Positions 3,194 to 46,223 of a DNA stretch of 55,323 nt are shown piece by piece (within the stretch, counting starts at the first letter, position 1; each line of letters starts with the position of its first letter). The notes beneath the pieces are model-generated. The model was not told where the DNA came from and searched no databases. It saw only the letters and a program-made list of their open reading frames with translations. The stretch is from assembly GCA_018897435.1 (NCBI GenBank), contig JAHIKI010000025.1:1-55323 (forward strand), given 5' to 3'. The stretch comes from Acidobacteriota bacterium (GTDB lineage Bacteria > Acidobacteriota > Aminicenantia > UBA2199). The position numbers were made by a program, and so were the translations under genes.

Positions 3194-5949
3194 AAACTAA
3201 TGCTCCTCAGCGGGCTTTGCAGGGGAAAGGTGATGCTGAAAGTGGTGCCGCGGTCTATCTTGCTGTTCACCTGGATGTTGCCGTAGTGCTCTTTGACGAT
3301 GTTGTAGACGATGGCCAGGCCCAGGCCTGTGCCCTTGCCGATCTCCTTGGTGGTGAAAAACGGGTCAAATACCTTTTCCAGGTTCTTCTCGCGGATGCCG
3401 CGACCGTTGTCCTTAAAGCGTATTGTGATCTCTTCGGCGCTTTCTTCCCCGCTGATCGAAATCCAGCCTTCGCTGTCTATGGCATCGATGGCGTTGATGA
3501 AAAGATTGATGAAAAGCTGTTGCAGGCGGGTGGAAAAACCGTGGAAACTCTTCTGAAATTCAGTTATTTTATTGAAGGTGATGCTCTTTTTATTCAGCTT
3601 GTGCTCGACCAGGGCCAGGCTCTCGTCGATCACTTTGTTCAGGTTGATGGGCATGGGCTGCTGACCTTTTTGCCGGGAAAAATCGAGCAGGGTGCGGATG
3701 ATCTTGTTCACGCGCAGTACCTGGTCCTGCATTTTTCCGACCAGCTCCAGGTTTTCCGCTCCATTCGGATTGTCGAGCAGGAATTGGCAGTAAGAGGAAA
3801 TGCCGGTCAAAGGGGTATTGATCTCATGGGCGATGCCGGCGGAAAGCAGTCCCAGTGAAGCCAGTTTTTCCGAAGTGATCAACTGGTTCTGGATGTTGTT
3901 TTTTTCGGTTACGTCCTCGAATACGAATATGCGGCCGGATATGCTGCCGCTATCGTTTTTCAACGGGGATATATACACGTCGTAGATCGATCCCGCGCCC
4001 TGGATTTGCACCTTGACATTGCGCAGGGTGTGGTTGGCGAAGCGGTCGGTTCGGATCTTGCTCCAGAATCCCGCTCCCAGGACCAAAGGCGCTTTTTTGC
4101 GCAGCGCTTTTTCCCGCTTGATCTGAAAGCGATCTTCCATGAAATAATTCCAAGACTGCACCTTGTTCAGGCGCGAGACGACCATGATGCCGAGATTGAT
4201 GTTTTGAATGATGTTTTCATTGAATTCCTTCAGCAGGTTCAACTCTTCGAGCTGGGTTTCCAAACGGGAATACAGGAAGGCGTTTTCCACCGAAAGGGCC
4301 AGGGGCGAGGAGATGCTGGACATCAGTTCCCAATCCTCGACGGTCAGGTAGGTATGGTTTGTTTTGCGGCCCATGGCCACAATGCCGATCAGCCGGTCGG
4401 CGATCTTTAAAGGCAGGAACTGGAAAAATTTATTCGGCGGCAGGGCGGCATGATCGCCGGGAAATTTTGTTGCGAATTCCTGTTCGGAAAGGAAAATGAG
4501 ATGCTCCTGGCTTTCCAGGGTGCTACGGAACGTTTTGGTCAAATGCAGGCGAGAGCGGTTGGGCATCGAGTAGAACATGTTGTTTTTGTAATGGATCAAA
4601 AGGGAAGAATCATGCAGTTGGAAACCGCGGTTGATGATCTCCAGGAAATTCTGCGATAATGAGGAAAGATCCCTCTGGGCGCTGATCGAGTGTTCCAGCT
4701 CCTTCAGCTTGCGCTTGAAATTGAATGTTTCGCGGTAGAATAGTTTTTCAAAGAATTTCTGGATGGTGCTTTCCAACGGCTTGAACAGCAGCCCGGCCAT
4801 CAGAATGGCGGCGATGGACCAGAAAATGCCCAGCAGCTTGTTCTGCTCGATATTCAGTCCCAAAAACATGTAAGTGCCGAAAATGAAAACGAAAAGCGAT
4901 GAGACCGACAGGGTTTTCTTGATGATGTTTTCAATATCGGTCACTCGTTTTGGGGACAGAAAGTAAACCAAGCTCAAGGGCAGGAAAGGGAGAAAGAACA
5001 TGCCAAGGAAAATACCGAGATTGGTTTTTCCGGCAAATGCCTGCGGTGAATAATTCAGCAACAGCAGGGAAATAAAACTCAGGGTGATGCCGCTTAAAGG
5101 GAAAATATAGCGCCTTTGCTTTTTTTTCAGGATCAGGGTCAGGGATGAAACGACGATGCTGATCCAGGCCAGAAAAACGTAGAGTGTGAAATATTGGCTG
5201 GCCAGGGAGCGGAAATGGTTGATGGCGGTGGTCAGAATCTCCGGATCGGGCCTGAAAATATTCTGCAGAATGAAATAAAGATTGATGAAAAGGAAAAGCA
5301 GCGGCGGCAGGTAGATCAGCAAGTAGCGGAAATTTTGGCTGAATTTTTTAAAGGCTCTGGTTCTGAGCGGATACTGCAATGCGTAATGGAGCAGCACGGC
5401 CGGAAAAAAAATATAGCAGACCGTATCCAGGACCAGGAAAATGAAATCGGCCGGGCCGTAATCGCCGCTGGGGGAAAATATCAGAAACCCGGACAGGGTG
5501 AGGCTGAGAATGAAAAAGATCTGCGGCGGCGGGAAAAGGGTCGCTTGCTTGACGTGCATGTTGAGAATGCCCAGGGTCAGCAAGATGGAGAGGATGCCGA
5601 TGAAAACCAGTATGTAATAGGAAAAAGGCGTAAAAACCGGATTGATGTCGACGCCGACGTTTTTCAGGATGCCGTGGCGTTCGATCTCGTAGCGGCAGTA
5701 ATTCCTGCCGGCGATGGAGCGCAACAGATCGATGCTGTTGCTGACCGAGTATTTGTTGACGGCCAGGAGGATGTCACCTGGCTTGATCTGACTGTTGGCC
5801 GGGGCCGATGCGCAGACCAGCCCCTGCTGCGAGTTTTCCCAGACCAGGTGATCGGAAACCGAGCTCCATTTCAATTTTTGGAAGAGATTGGCCAAGCTGA
5901 TGAGGATGAACAGGGCGAAAATGAAGTGCCAGGGATACTTTTTGATCAT
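3190..5949 (-). CDS. Membrane sensor histidine kinase with N-terminal PDZ-like region
   Basis: 919 residues. One N-terminal membrane helix is followed by a PDZ-like segment (about 40-100; [13 protein letters not shown] is PDZ-like). Then come a block of about eight hydrophobic helices (about 110-390), a GAF-like region, a PAS-like region and the kinase core. The H box [14 protein letters not shown] has its histidine near residue 708. An N box with LFINAIDAI, a G1 box DNGRGI and a G2 box GTGLGLAI follow. It should autophosphorylate and pass phosphate to the overlapping NtrC-type regulator. The ligand is unknown. A PDZ before a 7-8 TM sensor is less common than a plain periplasmic sensor. It overlaps the small secreted gene upstream by 4 bp. 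Confidence 0.92.
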
Positions 5950-7571: not shown

Positions 7572-7605
7572 TGCGCCCTCGTGTGCCGCCGAATTTTTAA
7601 TTTAA

Positions 7606-7633
7606 ATTATAACGCTTTTTCAATTAAATGCAA
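7606..7633 (-). promoter_or_regulatory. Sigma-70 promoter of ackA
   Basis: Minus strand TTGCAT (7633-7628), 16 nt spacer, TATAAT (7611-7606). The predicted start near 7599 gives a leader of about 28 nt with a GAGGG ribosome binding site. Confidence 0.7.
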
Positions 7634-7689
7634 TACGGCAAACGGCATAAAATTAAATTATTAACTTTATTTCCGGCGCCGGCCCAAAG

Positions 7690-7840
7690 CTGGTGTTAGT
7701 GGTAGTGATAGTATTAGCAAGAAAATCAACGAAATTTGTATTTGAATTCATTCCCGTGCTGTTTATTGACACTGTCCTGGAACTGACACCTTTATCTCGG
7801 TTTTTTCTCCTGCTGTCACTAACACTGACACTGACACTTT
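7690..7840. repeat. Imperfect inverted repeat with degenerate tandem arms (GTGTTAGTGG type)
   Basis: The left arm (about 7690-7720) is built of GTGTTAGTGGTAGTGATAG-type words. The right arm (about 7811-7840) is built of TCACTAACACTGACACTGACAC words, so the arms are imperfect reverse complements. The roughly 90 nt between them also contains TTGACACTG and CTGACACC words. It fills most of the ackA/7872 divergent gap. It is one of several such islands in the window with different word sequences but the same plan. Confidence 0.55.
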
Positions 7841-7866
7841 GCCCTGGCAGTGAATTATGTTAAAAT
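7839..7866 (+). promoter_or_regulatory. Leaderless promoter of the 7872 gene
   Basis: TTGCCC (7839-7844), 16 nt, TAAAAT (7861-7866), then 5 nt to the ATG at 7872. The -10 box lies downstream of the alternative ATG at 7857, which argues against that start. Confidence 0.5.
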
Positions 7867-15226: not shown

Positions 15227-16989
15227 TTCATCTTCTTGTCGATTTCCCTGAGCAGGCCGCGCAGGGTCTCCAAGTCCTTTTTCAGCTCCAATGCCGATTT
15301 TTTATGCTCAGAGAACTTGGCCAACTCCGACTGCGACTTGATGAACAGGAATTTTTCGGCGCTGGCGGCGGCGACCTGCCGTTGGCGGAAGATCTCGGCG
15401 ATCTTCTGGTTGGAGATCTCGGCCAGGCCCAGACCGCATTTTTCCTGGAAGTAGGCCTCCAGGAGCGGGGCAATGTCTTCGCCGTGCCGGACGCGGGCCA
15501 ACTGCTTCAGTATCCGGGCCAGGACCTGCCGGTTACGGAGCAGCGGGCTGGGGGCAATGTGGCGGTCCCAGAGAACGGTTTTCAGCAGCAGCAGCAGGTT
15601 GAAGGCGAAGAAAGCGAGAATGACGGCCGCGAACCATTTCTGGCGGTACAGGTGCCAGGATTGGTCATGGAGCCGGCCGCTGCGGATGAAATCGATGTCC
15701 TCGCCCTTCTGCACAATAGCGCTTCTGGGCAGGGTCAGGGCATGGTCCGTTGAAAGTTTTTCGCCGCTGACCCGGATCGACAGGGGATGGCTGCGCAGGC
15801 TGACGATATTGCCCCGGGCCGGGTCGAAATACCTGAACTCCAGGGCCGGGAAAGTAAGGGTGCCTGTTTTGTTGAAGGACACCGGGATTTCGGCCCGCAG
15901 GGTCCCGGCCAGGGCGGCGGAATTATATTTGTTCTCCTGGGTGATCTTGGCCGGATAGGTAACGAACTGATCGCTGCCGGGCAGCGTCGGAGGAATAATG
16001 GCTTTGCAATTGCCGCTGCCGCTGATCTCAATTTGCAGGGTGACGATGTCGTTGATATCGGCCTGGGCCTGGGGGCTGTGCAGCGAAAAATCGAATTGGC
16101 CTACCGGCAGCCCGGCCCCCTCGGGGGGAGGTTCGCCAACCGTGATCTTCACTTCCTGGGTCGAGCGGCGGATCGGCTGCGAACCGAAGAACATGGATTG
16201 CGCATCGGCCATTTCCAGTTCGAACTGCAGGGACGGTATGGTCAGGGTGCCGCCCTCGCTGGCGAACAGCGCCGCTTTGCGGATCTCGTAGACCTGGTAG
16301 ATGACGCCGTTGACGTTTTCGCTGCCCGGGGTGATGGACTGGGGGACCGGAAACCATTCCTGCCAGAAACCGGCGAACGAAGCGCTGGAAAGCATGTTTA
16401 CGGCTTGGATGCGGTTGCGGGTGTAGAGCAGGACACGGAACAGCAATTGCTCGCCTTTCAGGCAGTTTTTTTTGGGCAAAACCGCCCGCAAGTAGGCATC
16501 CACCTTCTGCGGCTGGCGATTCTGCATGGGGGAGGTGAAAAAATCGTCACCAAAAAACGAAGGCTGTCCTGCCGGAGGGGGCTGGGCGGGGTTTAAGCTG
16601 CCTTTGACCACTTCCACCGTGAACTGCCGGGTCTGGTAATCCTGCCCCTGGTACTGGTAGCGGACCGGCGGCAAGGTCAATTTTCCGGTGCGCACCGGCA
16701 TCAGGTAGTAGACGAAGCGGGTGGAGGTGGAGCTGGCACCGTTGCGGAATTGGAATTCGGAACTGCGTGTTGTCTGCAGGGTCTTGAAATCGTCGAGGTA
16801 GGTCAGATCTGGCTGGCTGGGATTTTCGATATTTTTAAAGGTCAGGGTGTAGATCAAGGTGTCGTCCAGGCCGAGTTTTTCAGCGCTGACCCTGGCCGTG
16901 ACCTCGGCGTCCACGTTCGACATCAAGGTTGACGCGGCCAGCAACATGGCCAGAAGCAAGAAAAAACAGGCGCTACCAGTCCTTTTCAT
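15223..16989 (-). CDS. batD: BatD-like membrane protein
   Basis: 588 residues, the size of BatD. It has a signal peptide, then several immunoglobulin-like beta domains (periplasmic), a membrane helix at about 455-475 (AAVILAFFAFNLLLLL) and a cytoplasmic helical tail. The N-terminal DLTYLDDFKTL and SSEFQFRNG phrases are typical of the BatD family. Its start overlaps batC by 17 bp. Likely partners are the VWA protein BatB and the TPR proteins. Function is inferred from family and operon. Confidence 0.85.
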   Translation of the reverse strand: MKRTGSACFFLLLAMLLAASTLMSNVDAEVTARVSAEKLGLDDTLIYTLTFKNIENPSQPDLTYLDDFKTLQTTRSSEFQFRNGASSTSTRFVYYLMPVRTGKLTLPPVRYQYQGQDYQTRQFTVEVVKGSLNPAQPPPAGQPSFFGDDFFTSPMQNRQPQKVDAYLRAVLPKKNCLKGEQLLFRVLLYTRNRIQAVNMLSSASFAGFWQEWFPVPQSITPGSENVNGVIYQVYEIRKAALFASEGGTLTIPSLQFELEMADAQSMFFGSQPIRRSTQEVKITVGEPPPEGAGLPVGQFDFSLHSPQAQADINDIVTLQIEISGSGNCKAIIPPTLPGSDQFVTYPAKITQENKYNSAALAGTLRAEIPVSFNKTGTLTFPALEFRYFDPARGNIVSLRSHPLSIRVSGEKLSTDHALTLPRSAIVQKGEDIDFIRSGRLHDQSWHLYRQKWFAAVILAFFAFNLLLLLKTVLWDRHIAPSPLLRNRQVLARILKQLARVRHGEDIAPLLEAYFQEKCGLGLAEISNQKIAEIFRQRQVAAASAEKFLFIKSQSELAKFSEHKKSALELKKDLETLRGLLREIDKKMK

Positions 16990-21892: not shown

Positions 21893-22248
21893 AAAAACAA
21901 CGTAAGCGGACTCCGCTTGTTATCGAGCACTTGGAAAAAATTCCTGGGATTGCCATTACGCTCTGTCCTGAAATTTTTACGGAATTCGCTAGAAAGAAGA
22001 GCGGGGTTTATGCGCTATACAAAGGAAGTTCTCTGTATTACGTCGGACTGACAAAAAACCTTCGTTCCCGCTTACATCGTCACCTCCGCGACCGTCACGC
22101 CCAGGAATGGAACCGTTTCAGCACCCTTTCCGTAGGGGCTTATAACTATACGCCCTATAATGACCGTATGTATCGCACCAAATCATGGGCGAAAATTTTT
22201 TCGCCCCTACGGAACAATCAAATCGTATTCGCCAAGATAGGCGGATAA
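21889..22248 (+). pseudogene. GIY-YIG domain gene truncated by a REPIN
   Basis: The first 80 residues contain a GIY-YIG nuclease core: SGVYALYKGSSLYYVGLTKNL with GVY at 39-41, YVGL at 51-54 and conserved arginines at 59 and 61. From residue 81 the frame runs into a 79 bp inverted REP pair (22132-22210) and then a short unrelated tail. The C-terminal part, which normally supplies the catalytic Glu, is missing. The start overlaps the restriction-modification stop (ATGA), so the intact ancestor was probably a coupled part of that system. It could still be translated as a chimeric 119-residue protein. Confidence 0.75.
22132..22210. repeat. REPIN inside the GIY-YIG gene
   Basis: It begins GTAGGGGCTTATAACTATA-CGCCC and ends GGGCGAAAATTTTTTCGCCC-CTAC: two REPs in inverted orientation, 79 bp overall. 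The same layout and nearly the same ends occur at 22543-22618. Confidence 0.85.
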
Positions 22249-26986: not shown

Positions 26987-27011
26987 GGGGCACGGCGCGC
27001 CGTGCCCCTAC
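26987..27011 (-). repeat. REP element, CACGGC type
   Basis: Identical 25 bp to the REP at 18701-18725, ending in CTAC. It forms the 3' boundary of a decayed RAYT gene. Confidence 0.8.
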
Positions 27012-27021
27012 TCCCGCACAA

Positions 27022-27241
27022 ACCTCATACCGTGCACCAAAGAGCGGGATTGTTTCTGATGTACTCTTGAATTCGGCTTAAATCCGCTTCATCACGGACA
27101 ATATGCTCGTAATAATTGCGCTGCTAAACGGGGACGCCAGGAGCCGCACGCAATTCATTAATGCGTTTGGCGGCCGCTGATTTAAAGGATCTGATTATGG
27201 TTGGCAGCGAGCCATGGACGGGTTTCCCGAATTGTTCCAAC
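27022..27241 (-). pseudogene. Decayed RAYT transposase fragment
   Basis: Read on the minus strand from the REP at 27242: FGKPVHGSLPTIIRSFKSAAAKRINELR, then APGVPV-stop-QRNYYEHIVRDEADLSRIQEYIRNNPALW. This is the C-terminal half of a Y1 REP-associated transposase including the catalytic NYYEH helix. The residue normally W before QRNYYEH is an in-frame TAG (27124-27126 region), and the N-terminal half with the HUH motif is missing. REPs lie at both ends. It is a different RAYT lineage from the intact gene at 22276. Confidence 0.8.
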
Positions 27242-27267
27242 GTAGGGGCACGGCGTGCCGTGCCCCC
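27242..27267 (+). repeat. REP element, CACGGC type
   Basis: GTAGGGGCACGGC-GTGCCGTGCCCC, plus orientation. It bounds the decayed RAYT on its truncated side. Confidence 0.8.
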
Positions 27268-28394: not shown

Positions 28395-29313
28395 AAAAAG
28401 CGGAACTCTCTTGTTCCCGGTCCTGATGCTGTTTTTTTTACCGGCGCTACTGTATATGGCGGCACAAACAGTTCAGAATGGAGATGAAGCTTGGGGACAG
28501 GAACTTCTTAAAGAGAGGGAGCAGAAGGATATTGAATTCAAGACCTCGGCCACTTCGCCCATGGCCGGCGGCGCTCGTTTGACCGTCAGCGCCCCGGGGA
28601 AAACTTTCATAACTATCATGGACGGGACCGTGTCCGTTAAAGCCCAGGCCGGCGCCGGAACGGTTTTTGCGGTATTTTCCAGAGAAGGGAAATGGTATTG
28701 GGACGAAAGTGCCCAAGGGATCCTATGCCGCATGGGAGAACGTGACATCGCCCGGAATGTTGAGGCGCTAATCCCGGGATGCCTGTTCAGGGCCGGCCGG
28801 TTCACGCTCGCCGCCTATCCCGGCCCGGACAGTCTGGCCCTGATCGTCTTCGACCAGCAGCGCCGCCAGCAGCTTGATTTTGAACACTTGCTTTATTTTC
28901 CTGCCGATCCCGTTTACGCGGTGCAAGCCAGGTTGGAGAAATTTCTGGAAAAGCGCGAAGTGAAGATCACTACCACGCGCAAGCTGGAAAAGACATTTTA
29001 TCGCTACGCCCGCATCCATTTTCAGCTGCATGGCAAAAACCTGGCTTTGACCGCCTTGAAGTCAAGCCTGGATGGTCCTGACGCAAATTACCTTTTCATC
29101 CCTTTCAAGGATATGACCAACGGCAGGGAGACCTATGAAGTCGGGCGCTTCATGGATGTGCCCGAGCCTCAAGGTGAGGAATTCGTCCTGGATTTCAACC
29201 GCTGCTACAACCCCCTGTGCAATTACTCACCCGCCTACAACTGTCCGCTGCCGCCACTGGAGAATTTCCTGGACATCGCCGTTCCGGCCGGAGAGAAGAC
29301 ATATCCTCATTAA
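28372..29313 (+). CDS. DUF1684 family secreted protein
   Basis: 313 residues. A hydrophobic N-terminal segment (about 11-31: LLFPVLMLFFLPALLYMA) is a signal or anchor. The C-terminus carries the DUF1684 signature: YEVGRFMDVP, LDFNRCYNP and YNCPLPPLENFLDIAVPAGEK. The DUF1684 function is unknown. The family is common in soil and Acidobacteria-like genomes and predicted to be extracytoplasmic. AAGGAG precedes the ATG. It starts within the end of the homoserine dehydrogenase remnant, so it may now use that gene's promoter. Confidence 0.8.
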   Translation: MYAKTRLEKSGTLLFPVLMLFFLPALLYMAAQTVQNGDEAWGQELLKEREQKDIEFKTSATSPMAGGARLTVSAPGKTFITIMDGTVSVKAQAGAGTVFAVFSREGKWYWDESAQGILCRMGERDIARNVEALIPGCLFRAGRFTLAAYPGPDSLALIVFDQQRRQQLDFEHLLYFPADPVYAVQARLEKFLEKREVKITTTRKLEKTFYRYARIHFQLHGKNLALTALKSSLDGPDANYLFIPFKDMTNGRETYEVGRFMDVPEPQGEEFVLDFNRCYNPLCNYSPAYNCPLPPLENFLDIAVPAGEKTYPH

Positions 29314-29345
29314 GAAAAGAACGAGCAATCGTGACGAGTAATCCC
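29313..29345. repeat. GTGACGAG-type arm, left half of an inverted repeat
   Basis: GAACGAGCAATCGTGACGAGTAAT; the matching right arm (GTCACTTAGCACTCGTCACTTATTACTTGTCAC) is at about 29668-29704. The two arms enclose the AAATTCCAA-type element at 29410-29662, giving nested inverted repeats. Confidence 0.5.
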
Positions 29346-29409
29346 CTCGGCGAGGTTCTTTAGGGCAAGTAACTAAGGAAAAAAACTAAAAAAACAAAAG
29401 TAAGAGAAG

Positions 29410-29662
29410 AAAAATTCCAAATCACAAATCCCAAATTCCAAATAAATTCCAAGTTCCAAATTCCAATGACCCAAACAAAAAAGTAGATGGGTAGAAGGGT
29501 AAACGAGTGAAAGGGTTAGGAAAACAGCAAGCGTTCGCTGCCAGTGCGATTGCCCCATCAACTCATCTACTCTTCAACGAGTGCTTATTTTTACGTTTTG
29601 GTCATTGGTACTTGGAGCTTGTTTGTGTTTTGGTATTTGGAATTTGATATTTTAGTCTTCCA
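29410..29662. repeat. AAATTCCAA-type inverted-repeat island, copy 1
   Basis: The left arm (about 29412-29470) is a string of degenerate CAAATTCCAAAT/CCAAGTTCCAA words. The right arm (about 29597-29660) is its imperfect reverse complement (GGTCATTGGTACTTGG...GGTATTTGGAATTTG). The centre holds GTAGATGGGTAGAAGGGT and ACTCATCTAC. The copy at 38420-38645 shares arms and much of the centre. It fills the 372 bp gap after the DUF1684 gene. No gene is seen in it. Confidence 0.65.
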
Positions 29663-29685
29663 AGTTCCTTGTCACTTAGCACTCG

Positions 29686-30084
29686 TCACTTATTACTTGT
29701 CACTGAGCTAGGCGCGGGGCCATGCAGCACCGAGCTTTCTTTTTTAAGCGGCTTGCCGCCCTGCACCGTATCCCAGCCGGTCAGCCAGGTCTGCACGTCG
29801 CGGTCGCCGTGCAAGGCAACGGTGATCTCGTCGCTGTCGCCGCCGCCAAATGGTTCGGCTTCCAAAAAAACGGTGCGGATCTCATTCTCTTGATCCAGGG
29901 GAATGGCCCAGGTCTGTGAATCGTAGGCGGCGATATCGATCCCGTCACCGTCGACCCAGGCCGCCATCGGCATGTTGCCGATATTGACCACGGTCACGTA
30001 GGCTTCATAGTTCTGTTTCACGCAGGAAACAAGGAACAGGGTCAGCATCAGCACGGCAAATCCCAGTAATATCTTTTTTTTCAT
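29686..30084 (-). CDS. Small lipoprotein, unknown function
   Basis: About 132 residues. MKKKILLGFAVLMLTLFLVSC is a lipoprotein signal with lipobox LVSC, C21 being the lipidated residue. The mature part has VTVVNIGNMPMAAWVDGDG, consistent with a small beta-sandwich. ATG 30084 follows GGAGG; longer starts would bury the signal peptide. It is divergent from the S9 peptidase gene. The family is not recognised. Confidence 0.7.
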   Translation of the reverse strand: MKKKILLGFAVLMLTLFLVSCVKQNYEAYVTVVNIGNMPMAAWVDGDGIDIAAYDSQTWAIPLDQENEIRTVFLEAEPFGGGDSDEITVALHGDRDVQTWLTGWDTVQGGKPLKKESSVLHGPAPSSVTSNK

Positions 30085-32774: not shown

Positions 32775-32778
32775 AAAG

Positions 32779-32999
32779 AGGTTCGAGGTTCGACGTTCGA
32801 AGTTGAAGAAAAAGCGAGCAGTCGTGATGAGTGAAAGAACTTCCAGGACTCAGTGATGAGTGATGAGAAAGAAAAAGAACCATTTAGAGATTTCGTTTTT
32901 ATGCGTTTTCTCATCACGTATCACTCATTACTTATCACGATAATTCGTTCTTCCTCCCGTACACCGTCAACCGTCTGCCGTCAACCGAGTCTTTTGTAC
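32779..32999. repeat. Intergenic island of nested inverted repeats (GGTTCGA, GTGATGAG and GACGGT words)
   Basis: It starts with GAGGTTCGAGGTTCGACGTTCGAAGTTG. Then a left arm (about 32822-32870) of GTGATGAGTGATGAG words and a right arm (about 32904-32945) of CTCATCACGTATCACTCATTACTTATCACG words follow. It ends with a reverse copy of the GACGGTTGACGGT repeat (about 32951-32990). It fills the whole gap between the convergent S9 and mtgA genes. No gene is seen. Confidence 0.6.
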
Positions 33000-33005
33000 C
33001 TTGAA

Positions 33006-33985: not shown

Positions 33986-34058
33986 GTAGGGGCGATTCGG
34001 TGAATCGCCCTGGAATGATTGCTTCCGGAAGCAGGGCGACCCACCGGGTCGCCCCTAC
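33986..34058. repeat. REPIN, GATTCGG type
   Basis: 73 bp. It begins GTAGGGGCGATTCGGTGAAT-CGCCC and ends GGGCGACCCACCGGGTCGCC-CCTAC, two inverted REPs. The spacer contains a perfect 12 bp palindrome, GCTTCCGGAAGC (34021-34032). It ends 8 bp before the stop of the GYD gene. Confidence 0.8.
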
Positions 34059-34369: not shown

Positions 34370-34417
34370 CGTCCACCTCCCATTGGTTCGATTGTATGCC
34401 TTTATGGTAATTAGAAC

Positions 34418-34532
34418 AAGACTCAGTGATGCGTGAACGAGCTTCCCGTGATCAGTGATGAGTGATGAGAAAGATCAATAGCTCGAGCTATTGCCGCTAC
34501 TTATCACTCATCACTTATAACTCATTACGATA
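34418..34532. repeat. GTGATGAG-type inverted-repeat island
   Basis: The left arm (about 34424-34471) has CAGTGATGCGTGA and GATCAGTGATGAGTGATGAG. The right arm (about 34498-34530) has TTATCACTCATCACTTATAACTCATTACG. The centre AATAGCTCGAGCTATT is itself a perfect 16 bp palindrome. It is related to the island at 32822-32945. Confidence 0.6.
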
Positions 34533-34538
34533 GTGCGG

Positions 34539-38302: not shown

Positions 38303-38308
38303 AAGGGC

Positions 38309-38337
38309 AGTATAAGCAATTGCCGCTTTTCAGTCAA
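38309..38337 (-). promoter_or_regulatory. Leaderless promoter of galE
   Basis: Minus strand TTGACT (38337-38332), 17 nt, TATACT (38314-38309), 6 nt, ATG (38302). It is the clearest leaderless promoter in the window; the 6 nt GCCCTT between -10 and ATG contains no Shine-Dalgarno. Confidence 0.75.
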
Positions 38338-38366
38338 GAAAAGCTGGTTGGGTGAGAGAATATCGG

Positions 38367-38400
38367 CGTAGGGCGTACGGTTGACGGTAGACGGTAAACG
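38367..38400. repeat. GACGGTTGACGGT-type repeat, copy 3
   Basis: GGCGTACGGTTGACGGTAGACGGTAAACG, related to 18663-18688 and to the reverse copy at about 32951-32990. Confidence 0.5.
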
Positions 38401-38419
38401 AGAAGAAAAAGTAAAGCAC

Positions 38420-38645
38420 CAATAATCAAGCACTAAATCCCAAATAAATTCCAAGCTCCAAATTCCAATGTCCCAAACCAAGAAGTAGATGGGTAGAAGG
38501 GTTAAAGGCAAATTGCACTTGTTCGATGCCATTGCTTTTGCCCCTTCAACTTGTCAACGAGTGTTTGTTCTCTTCGTTTTGGTCATTTGTCATTGGAATT
38601 TGGTGCATGTTTGTAATTTGGTGCTTGAGATTTGGAATTTTTCTT
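38420..38645. repeat. AAATTCCAA-type inverted-repeat island, copy 2
   Basis: The left arm (about 38428-38480) has AAATCCCAAATAAATTCCAAGCTCCAAATTCC. The centre has AGTAGATGGGTAGAAGGGTTAAAG and GCCCCTTCAACT...CAACGAGTG. The right arm (about 38576-38640) has GGTCATTTGTCATTGGAATTTGG and GAGATTTGGAATTT. It shares arm words and centre phrases with 29410-29662. No gene is seen in this 506 bp gap apart from the repeats and the promoter at 38730. Confidence 0.65.
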
Positions 38646-38729
38646 GAAACCCGCTATGCACTGTATGTCAATTTCTGCAATTTCGGATTTTTTTCTCTTT
38701 AAAAACCTATGAAAACGGGCTCTGAATCA

Positions 38730-38758
38730 TTGACATCAATGCCAATATTGATTATACT
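38730..38758 (+). promoter_or_regulatory. Sigma-70 promoter of the cDPGS-like/carbamate kinase operon
   Basis: TTGACA (38730-38735), 17 nt, TATACT (38753-38758). The leader is about 44 nt with AGGAGG before ATG 38809. Confidence 0.8.
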
Positions 38759-38808
38759 TATACTTCATTTCCACAACTTGAGAATAACTACACATACAGG
38801 AGGATTAG

Positions 38809-46057: not shown

Positions 46058-46073
46058 TTCGTTTAGATGAACT

Positions 46074-46178
46074 CCGTAATTTGTAATTTGTGATTCGTGA
46101 TTAGAAAGAGGAAGAGAAATTGAAATACTTCTCGAAATTGCGGCTTCGAATTACGAATTACATTTTACGAATCACGTA
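46074..46178. repeat. AATTTGTAATTTGTGATTCG-type inverted-repeat island
   Basis: The left arm (about 46078-46103) is GTAATTTGTAATTTGTGATTCG. The right arm (about 46148-46173) is GAATTACGAATTACATTTTACG then AATCACG, an imperfect reverse complement. A partial single arm recurs at 46802-46832. It has the same plan as the other islands but a different word. Confidence 0.55.
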
Positions 46179-46223
46179 TCTCATTGATCGAGTATATAAC
46201 GCACAACGATGGGGGTGATTGAA

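Follow-up and report, generated by a model that had tools for sequence, protein, structure and literature searches.

Probable dispersed palindromic repeats with heptamer-built stems in intergenic gaps of a Candidatus Aminicenantes genus

The window, that is, the whole 55,323-nt stretch of DNA analysed here (contig C92 of a 2.19 Mb metagenome assembly, 60% complete), contains six intergenic islands of inverted repeats, none of them assigned to a strand. Island A (7693..7831) lies in a divergent gap and consists of the hexamer words GTGTTA, GTGGTA, and GTGATA in arms at 7693-7723 and 7801-7831; its ortholog in the sister genome G015 is also a period-6 hairpin, with AGTGATA and GGGATA words. Island B (29331..29710) occupies a convergent gap, in which what is left of an outer GTGACGAG hairpin (29331-29342 and 29668-29710) encloses an AAATTCC element; the outer part is common to G014 and G004. 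The 5′ arm of this element (29412..29485) comprises AAATTCC, AAATCAC, and AAATCCC heptamers and the inner core AATGACCCAAACAAAA, the inner part (29486..29585) comprises octamer words of the GGGTAGAT type together with the centre and has homologues at 38360 and on contigs C13 and C20, and the 3′ arm (29586..29652) forms the GGAATTT side. Island C, also in a convergent gap, contains a GTGATGA hairpin (32845..32932, arms 32845-32870 and 32907-32932), accompanied on the left alone by GGTTCGA heptamers (32778..32807) and on the right alone by the complement of ACGGTNN heptamers (32957..32987). Island D (34448..34521, arms 34448-34483 and 34486-34521) is a GTGATGA hairpin in a co-directional gap. 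Island E lies in a divergent gap; its AAATTCC element (38409..38645, arms 38409-38483 and 38571-38645) is 77% identical over 285 columns to a copy on contig C13, and ACGGTNN heptamers stand on one side, outside the element (38367..38401). Island F (46059..46191, arms 46059-46106 and 46145-46191) is a hairpin of GTAATTT and GTGATTC heptamers in a co-directional gap. The genes flanking islands B-F are ordinary, including DUF1684, prolyl oligopeptidase, transglycosylase, GYD, epimerase, and histidine phosphatase genes. Elsewhere in the window, at 22128-22214, 26987-27266, and 33986-34058, GTAGGGGC...GCCCC(TAC) palindromes resemble GTAG-tagged REPs, and palindromes of this type are found at many further genomic loci.

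When each gap was aligned to its reverse complement, with 20 dinucleotide shuffles as the reference, all six islands noted in the preliminary description exceeded the shuffles, with z of 5.3 (7572-7856), 18.0 (29314-29685), 3.8 (32775-33005), 8.2 (34370-34538), 13.8 (38303-38808), and 12.6 (46058-46208); the weakest is the inner GTGATGAG hairpin at 32779. That the second arm is the reverse complement of the first holds generally, except that GGTTCGA and the GACGGT complement at 32779-32999, as well as GACGGT at 38367, are one-sided.

The further statistics are based on 1.25 Mb of the host genome, 480 kb of G015, and shorter stretches from other genomes. G015 belongs to the host genus and matches the genome of Candidatus Aminicenantes bacterium UBA6072 identically in places, which assigns the host to an Aminicenantes genus. 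Strong hairpins number 63 in 518 gaps of the host genome, compared with 1 in shuffled copies; the single plan with changing words proposed for the window extends genome-wide, and the islands are not confined to the gaps first described. Their median arm is 46 nt, the median span is 157 nt, and arm pairing is 76%. The words first described as 7-10 nt long have a period of almost exactly 7, with 6 or 8 in a few. Within the arms of 59 strong hairpins in the 1.25 Mb, identity at lags of 7, 14, and 21 is 0.43, 0.41, and 0.34, respectively, against approximately 0.27 elsewhere. Within the window, the 7690 island departs from this with a period of 6, as do the 29313 and 38367 islands with a period of 8 in their inner GGGTAGAT part. 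The heptamers comprise AAATTCC with AAGCACC and AAATCCC, GTGAYGN, GTGATTN, ACGGTNN, GGTTCGA, AGTAGNN, GGTNATR, and CAGAGNN; the octamers are GGGTAGAT and GTTGAAGN; and the hexamers GTGTTA and AGTGAT occur chiefly in divergent gaps. Hairpins of period 6 with AGTGAT and GTGTTA were located in the host and G015 at window positions 7693-7831, L240 ~3445-3620, and L241 ~15770-15960, and divergent gaps were the commonest setting among the hits.

A search for periodic tracts that is blind to inversion (28-nt windows, lag identity of at least 75%) identified 44 period-7 tracts within the 161 kb of intergenic sequence and a single one across approximately 1 Mb of coding DNA, such that the claim that islands never lie in genes is nearly exact. 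Only 0-8 intergenic tracts were found at each of lags 4-6 and 8-13, compared with the 44 at lag 7, and the units are degenerate. Although these tracts share the head-to-tail period of heptanucleotide tandem repeats, they are not direct-only arrays, as an inverted partner fits better than a direct one in 33 of the 44. An artefact of metagenome assembly is unlikely, given that period-7 tracts with inverted partners are also present in Niastella sp. OAS944, a genome that its record does not label as a MAG. Collectively, these results confirm that the islands are a real, organised feature.

A paralogous copy at E<1e-8 was found for 39 of the 67 islands in the host and G015. Copy pairs at different loci reach 94% identity over 220 columns, and another pair shows 82% over 293 columns; no target-site duplication was seen among the aligned pairs. 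In addition, 22 AAATTCC islands of several species have in common the inner core TGACC[CA]AAAC...GTTT[GT]GGTCA. One stem position is mismatched in 22 of 24 AAATTCC cores, as C-T in 10 and A-G in 9, and this split represents one asymmetric element in two orientations that are about equally frequent. Descent from a dispersed element explains the conserved mismatch, while mending of the arms or selection for pairing alone does not. RNAalifold returned no structure for the 22 AAATTCC islands, the repeat alignment being too gappy. A shared core was demonstrated for AAATTCC and not for GTGAY, ACGGT, or the other words. As a separate observation, a small hairpin, AAGTCCCCGTCAGGGGA, lies within one arm of several AAATTCC islands of G015 and G008 (L257 13628-13909, L259 17695-17865, L269 6747-6904, and L253 6952-7294); the other arm has no mirror of it, and it resembles a tiny insertion. 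A second dispersed palindrome family, TTAGCCCGCATTTCTCACAAATATTTGCTGCAATTGCGGATATGG, has no heptamer period and occurs at L042 10288-10522, L180 8526-8943, L194 1787-2236, and L050 891-1047.

Where orthologous gaps were compared across as many as 12 sister species, the hairpin is usually retained, and the word is often another. In the convergent gap of island B, the sisters have a GTGAC hairpin (G014), GTGAC around ACGGTNN (G004), a GAGGGAA-like hairpin (G001), GGTTCGA with GTTGAAG octamers (G003), or AAATTCC (G002, G005, G011, and G015). Two sisters, G006 and G010, have no hairpin in this gap and also lack the convergent neighbour gene; the loss of hairpin and gene may be a single deletion. 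In the gap of island C, the sisters carry at least six word sets, including AGTGAAA, ACGGTNN, ACGGTNN with AAATTCC, GTGACGC, one-sided GTGACGC with AAATTCC, GGGGTTA, and GGTTCGA with GTTGAAG. Between the host and G007, the proteins flanking this gap are on average 93% identical, and the hairpins are unrelated. The arms of islands B-E are closer to other islands of the same genome than to the orthologous gap (for gap C, 42 versus 10-13). Across 74 orthologous gaps, island presence is associated with an odds ratio of 39, a figure that is descriptive only because just five host gaps drive it. Counting against a spread of copies among sites, nearly every sister has a hairpin in gaps B and C, more than free insertion at the mean rate (approximately 24% of convergent gaps) would produce, unless existing hairpins draw in further copies.

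With genes called by a simple codon-usage caller (stops exact, starts rough), the 720 gaps of the host and G015 comprise 98 convergent, 468 co-directional, and 154 divergent ones, of which 23, 31, and 13, respectively, hold islands. At constant gap length, 9.8 convergent gaps with an island were expected, and none of 5000 permutations reached 23; the bias also appears in each of the two genomes taken separately (odds ratio of 3.1 with p 0.005 in one and of 6.6 with p 8e-5 in the other). Co-directional islands lie nearer the 3′ end of the upstream gene in 27 of 31 cases, and the median distance is 22 nt to a gene 3′ end versus 90 nt to a 5′ end. These positions are what would be expected if the islands were selected transcript-end elements, with a long hairpin needed at certain 3′ ends, chiefly those of convergent genes, as a bidirectional terminator or a 3′ mRNA protector and with the word free. 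This explanation, which we hold possible but rather doubtful, also agrees with the hairpins kept in gaps B and C under changing words and with the joint absence of hairpin and convergent gene in G006 and G010, although the latter may reflect one deletion. The base pairs lend it no such support. In co-directional gaps read in transcript orientation, 83 G-U and 87 A-C mismatches were counted, and this equality gives no sign of RNA-level selection through a G-U excess; one stem position even stays mismatched. A T4+ tract at the outer 3′ edge is rare (13 of 87 islands), which does not fit an intrinsic bidirectional terminator of hairpin and U-tract. Furthermore, 27 of 68 convergent gaps of at least 100 nt contain no hairpin, 13 islands lie in divergent gaps, and insertions purged near promoters would yield the same gene-end bias. 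The position of the islands favours the earlier suggestion of transcript-end structures, whereas their pairing and T-tracts do not; with G-U no commoner than A-C and few T-tracts, an RNA role is tentative.

The arms have a fixed polarity. The word occupies the 5′ arm in 82 of 83 cases and the 3′ arm in one, and purines predominate in the 5′ arm of 85 of 87 islands, whatever the gap type, compared with 312 of 664 control arms. This polarity is a property of the element and not of the strand, since reverse-complementing a hairpin leaves it unchanged; within one family, common descent suffices for it. Polarity also bears on neutral local palindrome growth, by which 7-nt slippage and strand switching would make and mend arms in place with no mobile element, and which the preliminary description had offered as a source of the islands. 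The period of 7 with degenerate units is consistent with such growth, as is the symmetry of G-U and A-C mismatches, which indicates change at the DNA level. Of the 36 islands with five or more units, 16 showed a poorer match between arms once the unit order of one arm was shuffled (p<0.05), as mirrored units would predict. However, nearly all of these are AAATTCC islands, which are copies of one family, so that mirrored order is not independent evidence of arm-to-arm templating. Local growth as the main source is unsupported because strand switching that corrects the arms would erase the mismatch conserved in both orientations; homologous copies at different loci, their non-repeated centres included, a fixed polarity for each word, and the replacement of a word between flanking proteins 93% identical (G000 versus G007) also count against it. 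We regard it as quite unlikely overall; it is disfavoured for the AAATTCC class and could hold for core-less classes.

Spread by TnpA-REP (RAYT) transposases, with the islands as ordinary REP elements, is less probable still. The islands are palindromic, intergenic, and dispersed, some REPs likewise carry a conserved stem mismatch, and Y1_Tnp (PF01797) matches occur in all four genus genomes searched (8 in G000, 6 in G015, and 1 each in G002 and G014). In contrast, the islands are 10-20-fold longer than REPs, are heptamer-built, and have no GTAG or CGTC tag at the foot, while true GTAGGGG palindromes coexist in the window and show no purine polarity (12 of 22). As a cause of island number, Y1/RAYT copy number is a misfit, since G002 has the most AAATTCC matches yet 1 Y1.

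Beyond the host, AAATTCCAAATTCCAA, with one mismatch allowed, has 33-352 matches per genome in five sampled genomes of the host genus, 0-1 in two sampled genomes of a sister genus, and tens to 111 in a few distant Acidobacteriota families (for example, f28 and f61), with approximately 0 for the reversed control. The exact 23-mer AAATTCCAAGTTCCAAATTCCAA is present in at least 108 contigs from many phyla and absent from all viral contigs searched; the phages, plasmids, and IMG/VR contigs searched gave no match and hence no phage or plasmid vehicle. In unbiased pieces of Niastella, Sunxiuqinia, a Flavobacteriaceae bin, and a Terriglobia bin, the commonest lag is period 7, and 6 of 10 Niastella tracts have inverted partners. 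AAATTCC occupies the 5′ arm of all 13 hairpins from Bacteroidota, all 5 from the PVC group (Verrucomicrobiota/Planctomycetes), and all 35 from Acidobacteriota, a polarity across phyla that is a lead and not proof because the AAATTCC word itself served to select the loci and metagenome bins may be mixed. The inner core, in contrast, was found at 0 of 52 loci in Bacteroidota and the PVC group and at 25 of 41 in Acidobacteriota. With the word and polarity shared among several phyla and the core not shared, a common enzyme or constraint writing in sevens might generate the hairpins, which would then form an unnamed, widespread bacterial class with stems of interchangeable heptamer words and fixed arm polarity; we put this forward as a speculative and rather unlikely extension.

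On balance, the islands are probably dispersed non-autonomous palindromic repeats of a Candidatus Aminicenantes genus, with heptamer-built stems, that settle at gene ends. We have shown the heptamer build, the polarity, the bias toward 3′ ends and convergent gaps, the change of words at orthologous gaps, and, for the AAATTCC class, the dispersed copies with a shared core and conserved mismatch. Copies would spread among intergenic sites, presumably by active copying, and new copies might settle in or replace existing hairpins, whereby a gap would keep its hairpin and change its word. The arms may grow and shrink through slippage in 7-nt steps. Accumulation at gene 3′ ends, chiefly between convergent genes, whose two transcripts would each end in the hairpin, might reflect tolerance or mild use at transcript ends.

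Rfam searches of the window at gathering and relaxed thresholds yielded only a chance match to a REP-like palindrome, and none of the island words themselves appeared in the freely accessible papers searched. A described relative exists in kind only, namely, the P6b stem of the tRNA-Leu(UAA) group I intron of Nostoc and Calothrix, which consists of degenerate heptanucleotide repeats (TDNGATT or NNTGAGT) (PMC4476775). The stem-loop changes length by whole units, and one word class is repeatedly replaced by another with the stem kept (PMC4476775). The islands of gaps B and C behave likewise across up to 12 sisters, NNTGAGT matches the TGAGTGA phase of the window words, and this replacement appears to be the closest analogue of the island word change. 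However, P6b is one cyanobacterial intron locus with two words, and dispersal over intergenic gaps, a gene-end preference, and nested words are not reported in the portion consulted (PMC4476775).

Intergenic heptamer repeats, such as TAACTGA (PMC4679880), GGGNATC (PMC4692102), the Geobacter heptanucleotide elements (PMC2700814), and cyanobacterial heptanucleotide repeats, share with the islands the 7-nt period, the intergenic preference, and a patchy distribution over phyla that include Bacteroidetes and Cyanobacteria. They differ in being direct arrays, mostly of one word per genome, without hairpin arms or word replacement; MacGregor counted 169 direct heptamer-repeat sets and one indirect. 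REP elements are 20-40 bp palindromes with a GTAG or CGTC foot tag (PMC3733652), whereas the islands are untagged heptamer arrays with arms of 30-100 nt and changing words. Like REPs and MITEs, the islands are dispersed, intergenic, non-coding palindromes with copies in both orientations; the earlier statement that they resemble neither thus applies to their sequence and not to their behaviour, as they disperse in the manner of palindromic repeats. MITEs have terminal repeats and target duplications, and the many homologous non-coding copies at different loci expected of MITEs are found among the islands (39/67, E<1e-8).

Heptanucleotide stems, direct heptamer repeats, and REPs or MITEs are thus each known, and we found none that combines the features of the islands. 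Heptamer repeats have long been noted as over-represented in bacterial genomes, with no mechanism given (PMC4692102). In the islands, such heptamers build the arms of hairpins that are dispersed, constant in polarity, and strongly biased toward gene ends, and whose words are quickly replaced while their positions stay the same. Testable questions follow: what copies the islands, why seven, why one polarity, and whether they are used at convergent transcript ends. A further caution is that gaps of this sort can show seemingly conserved, covarying structure through swaps of whole hairpins rather than through compensatory mutation.
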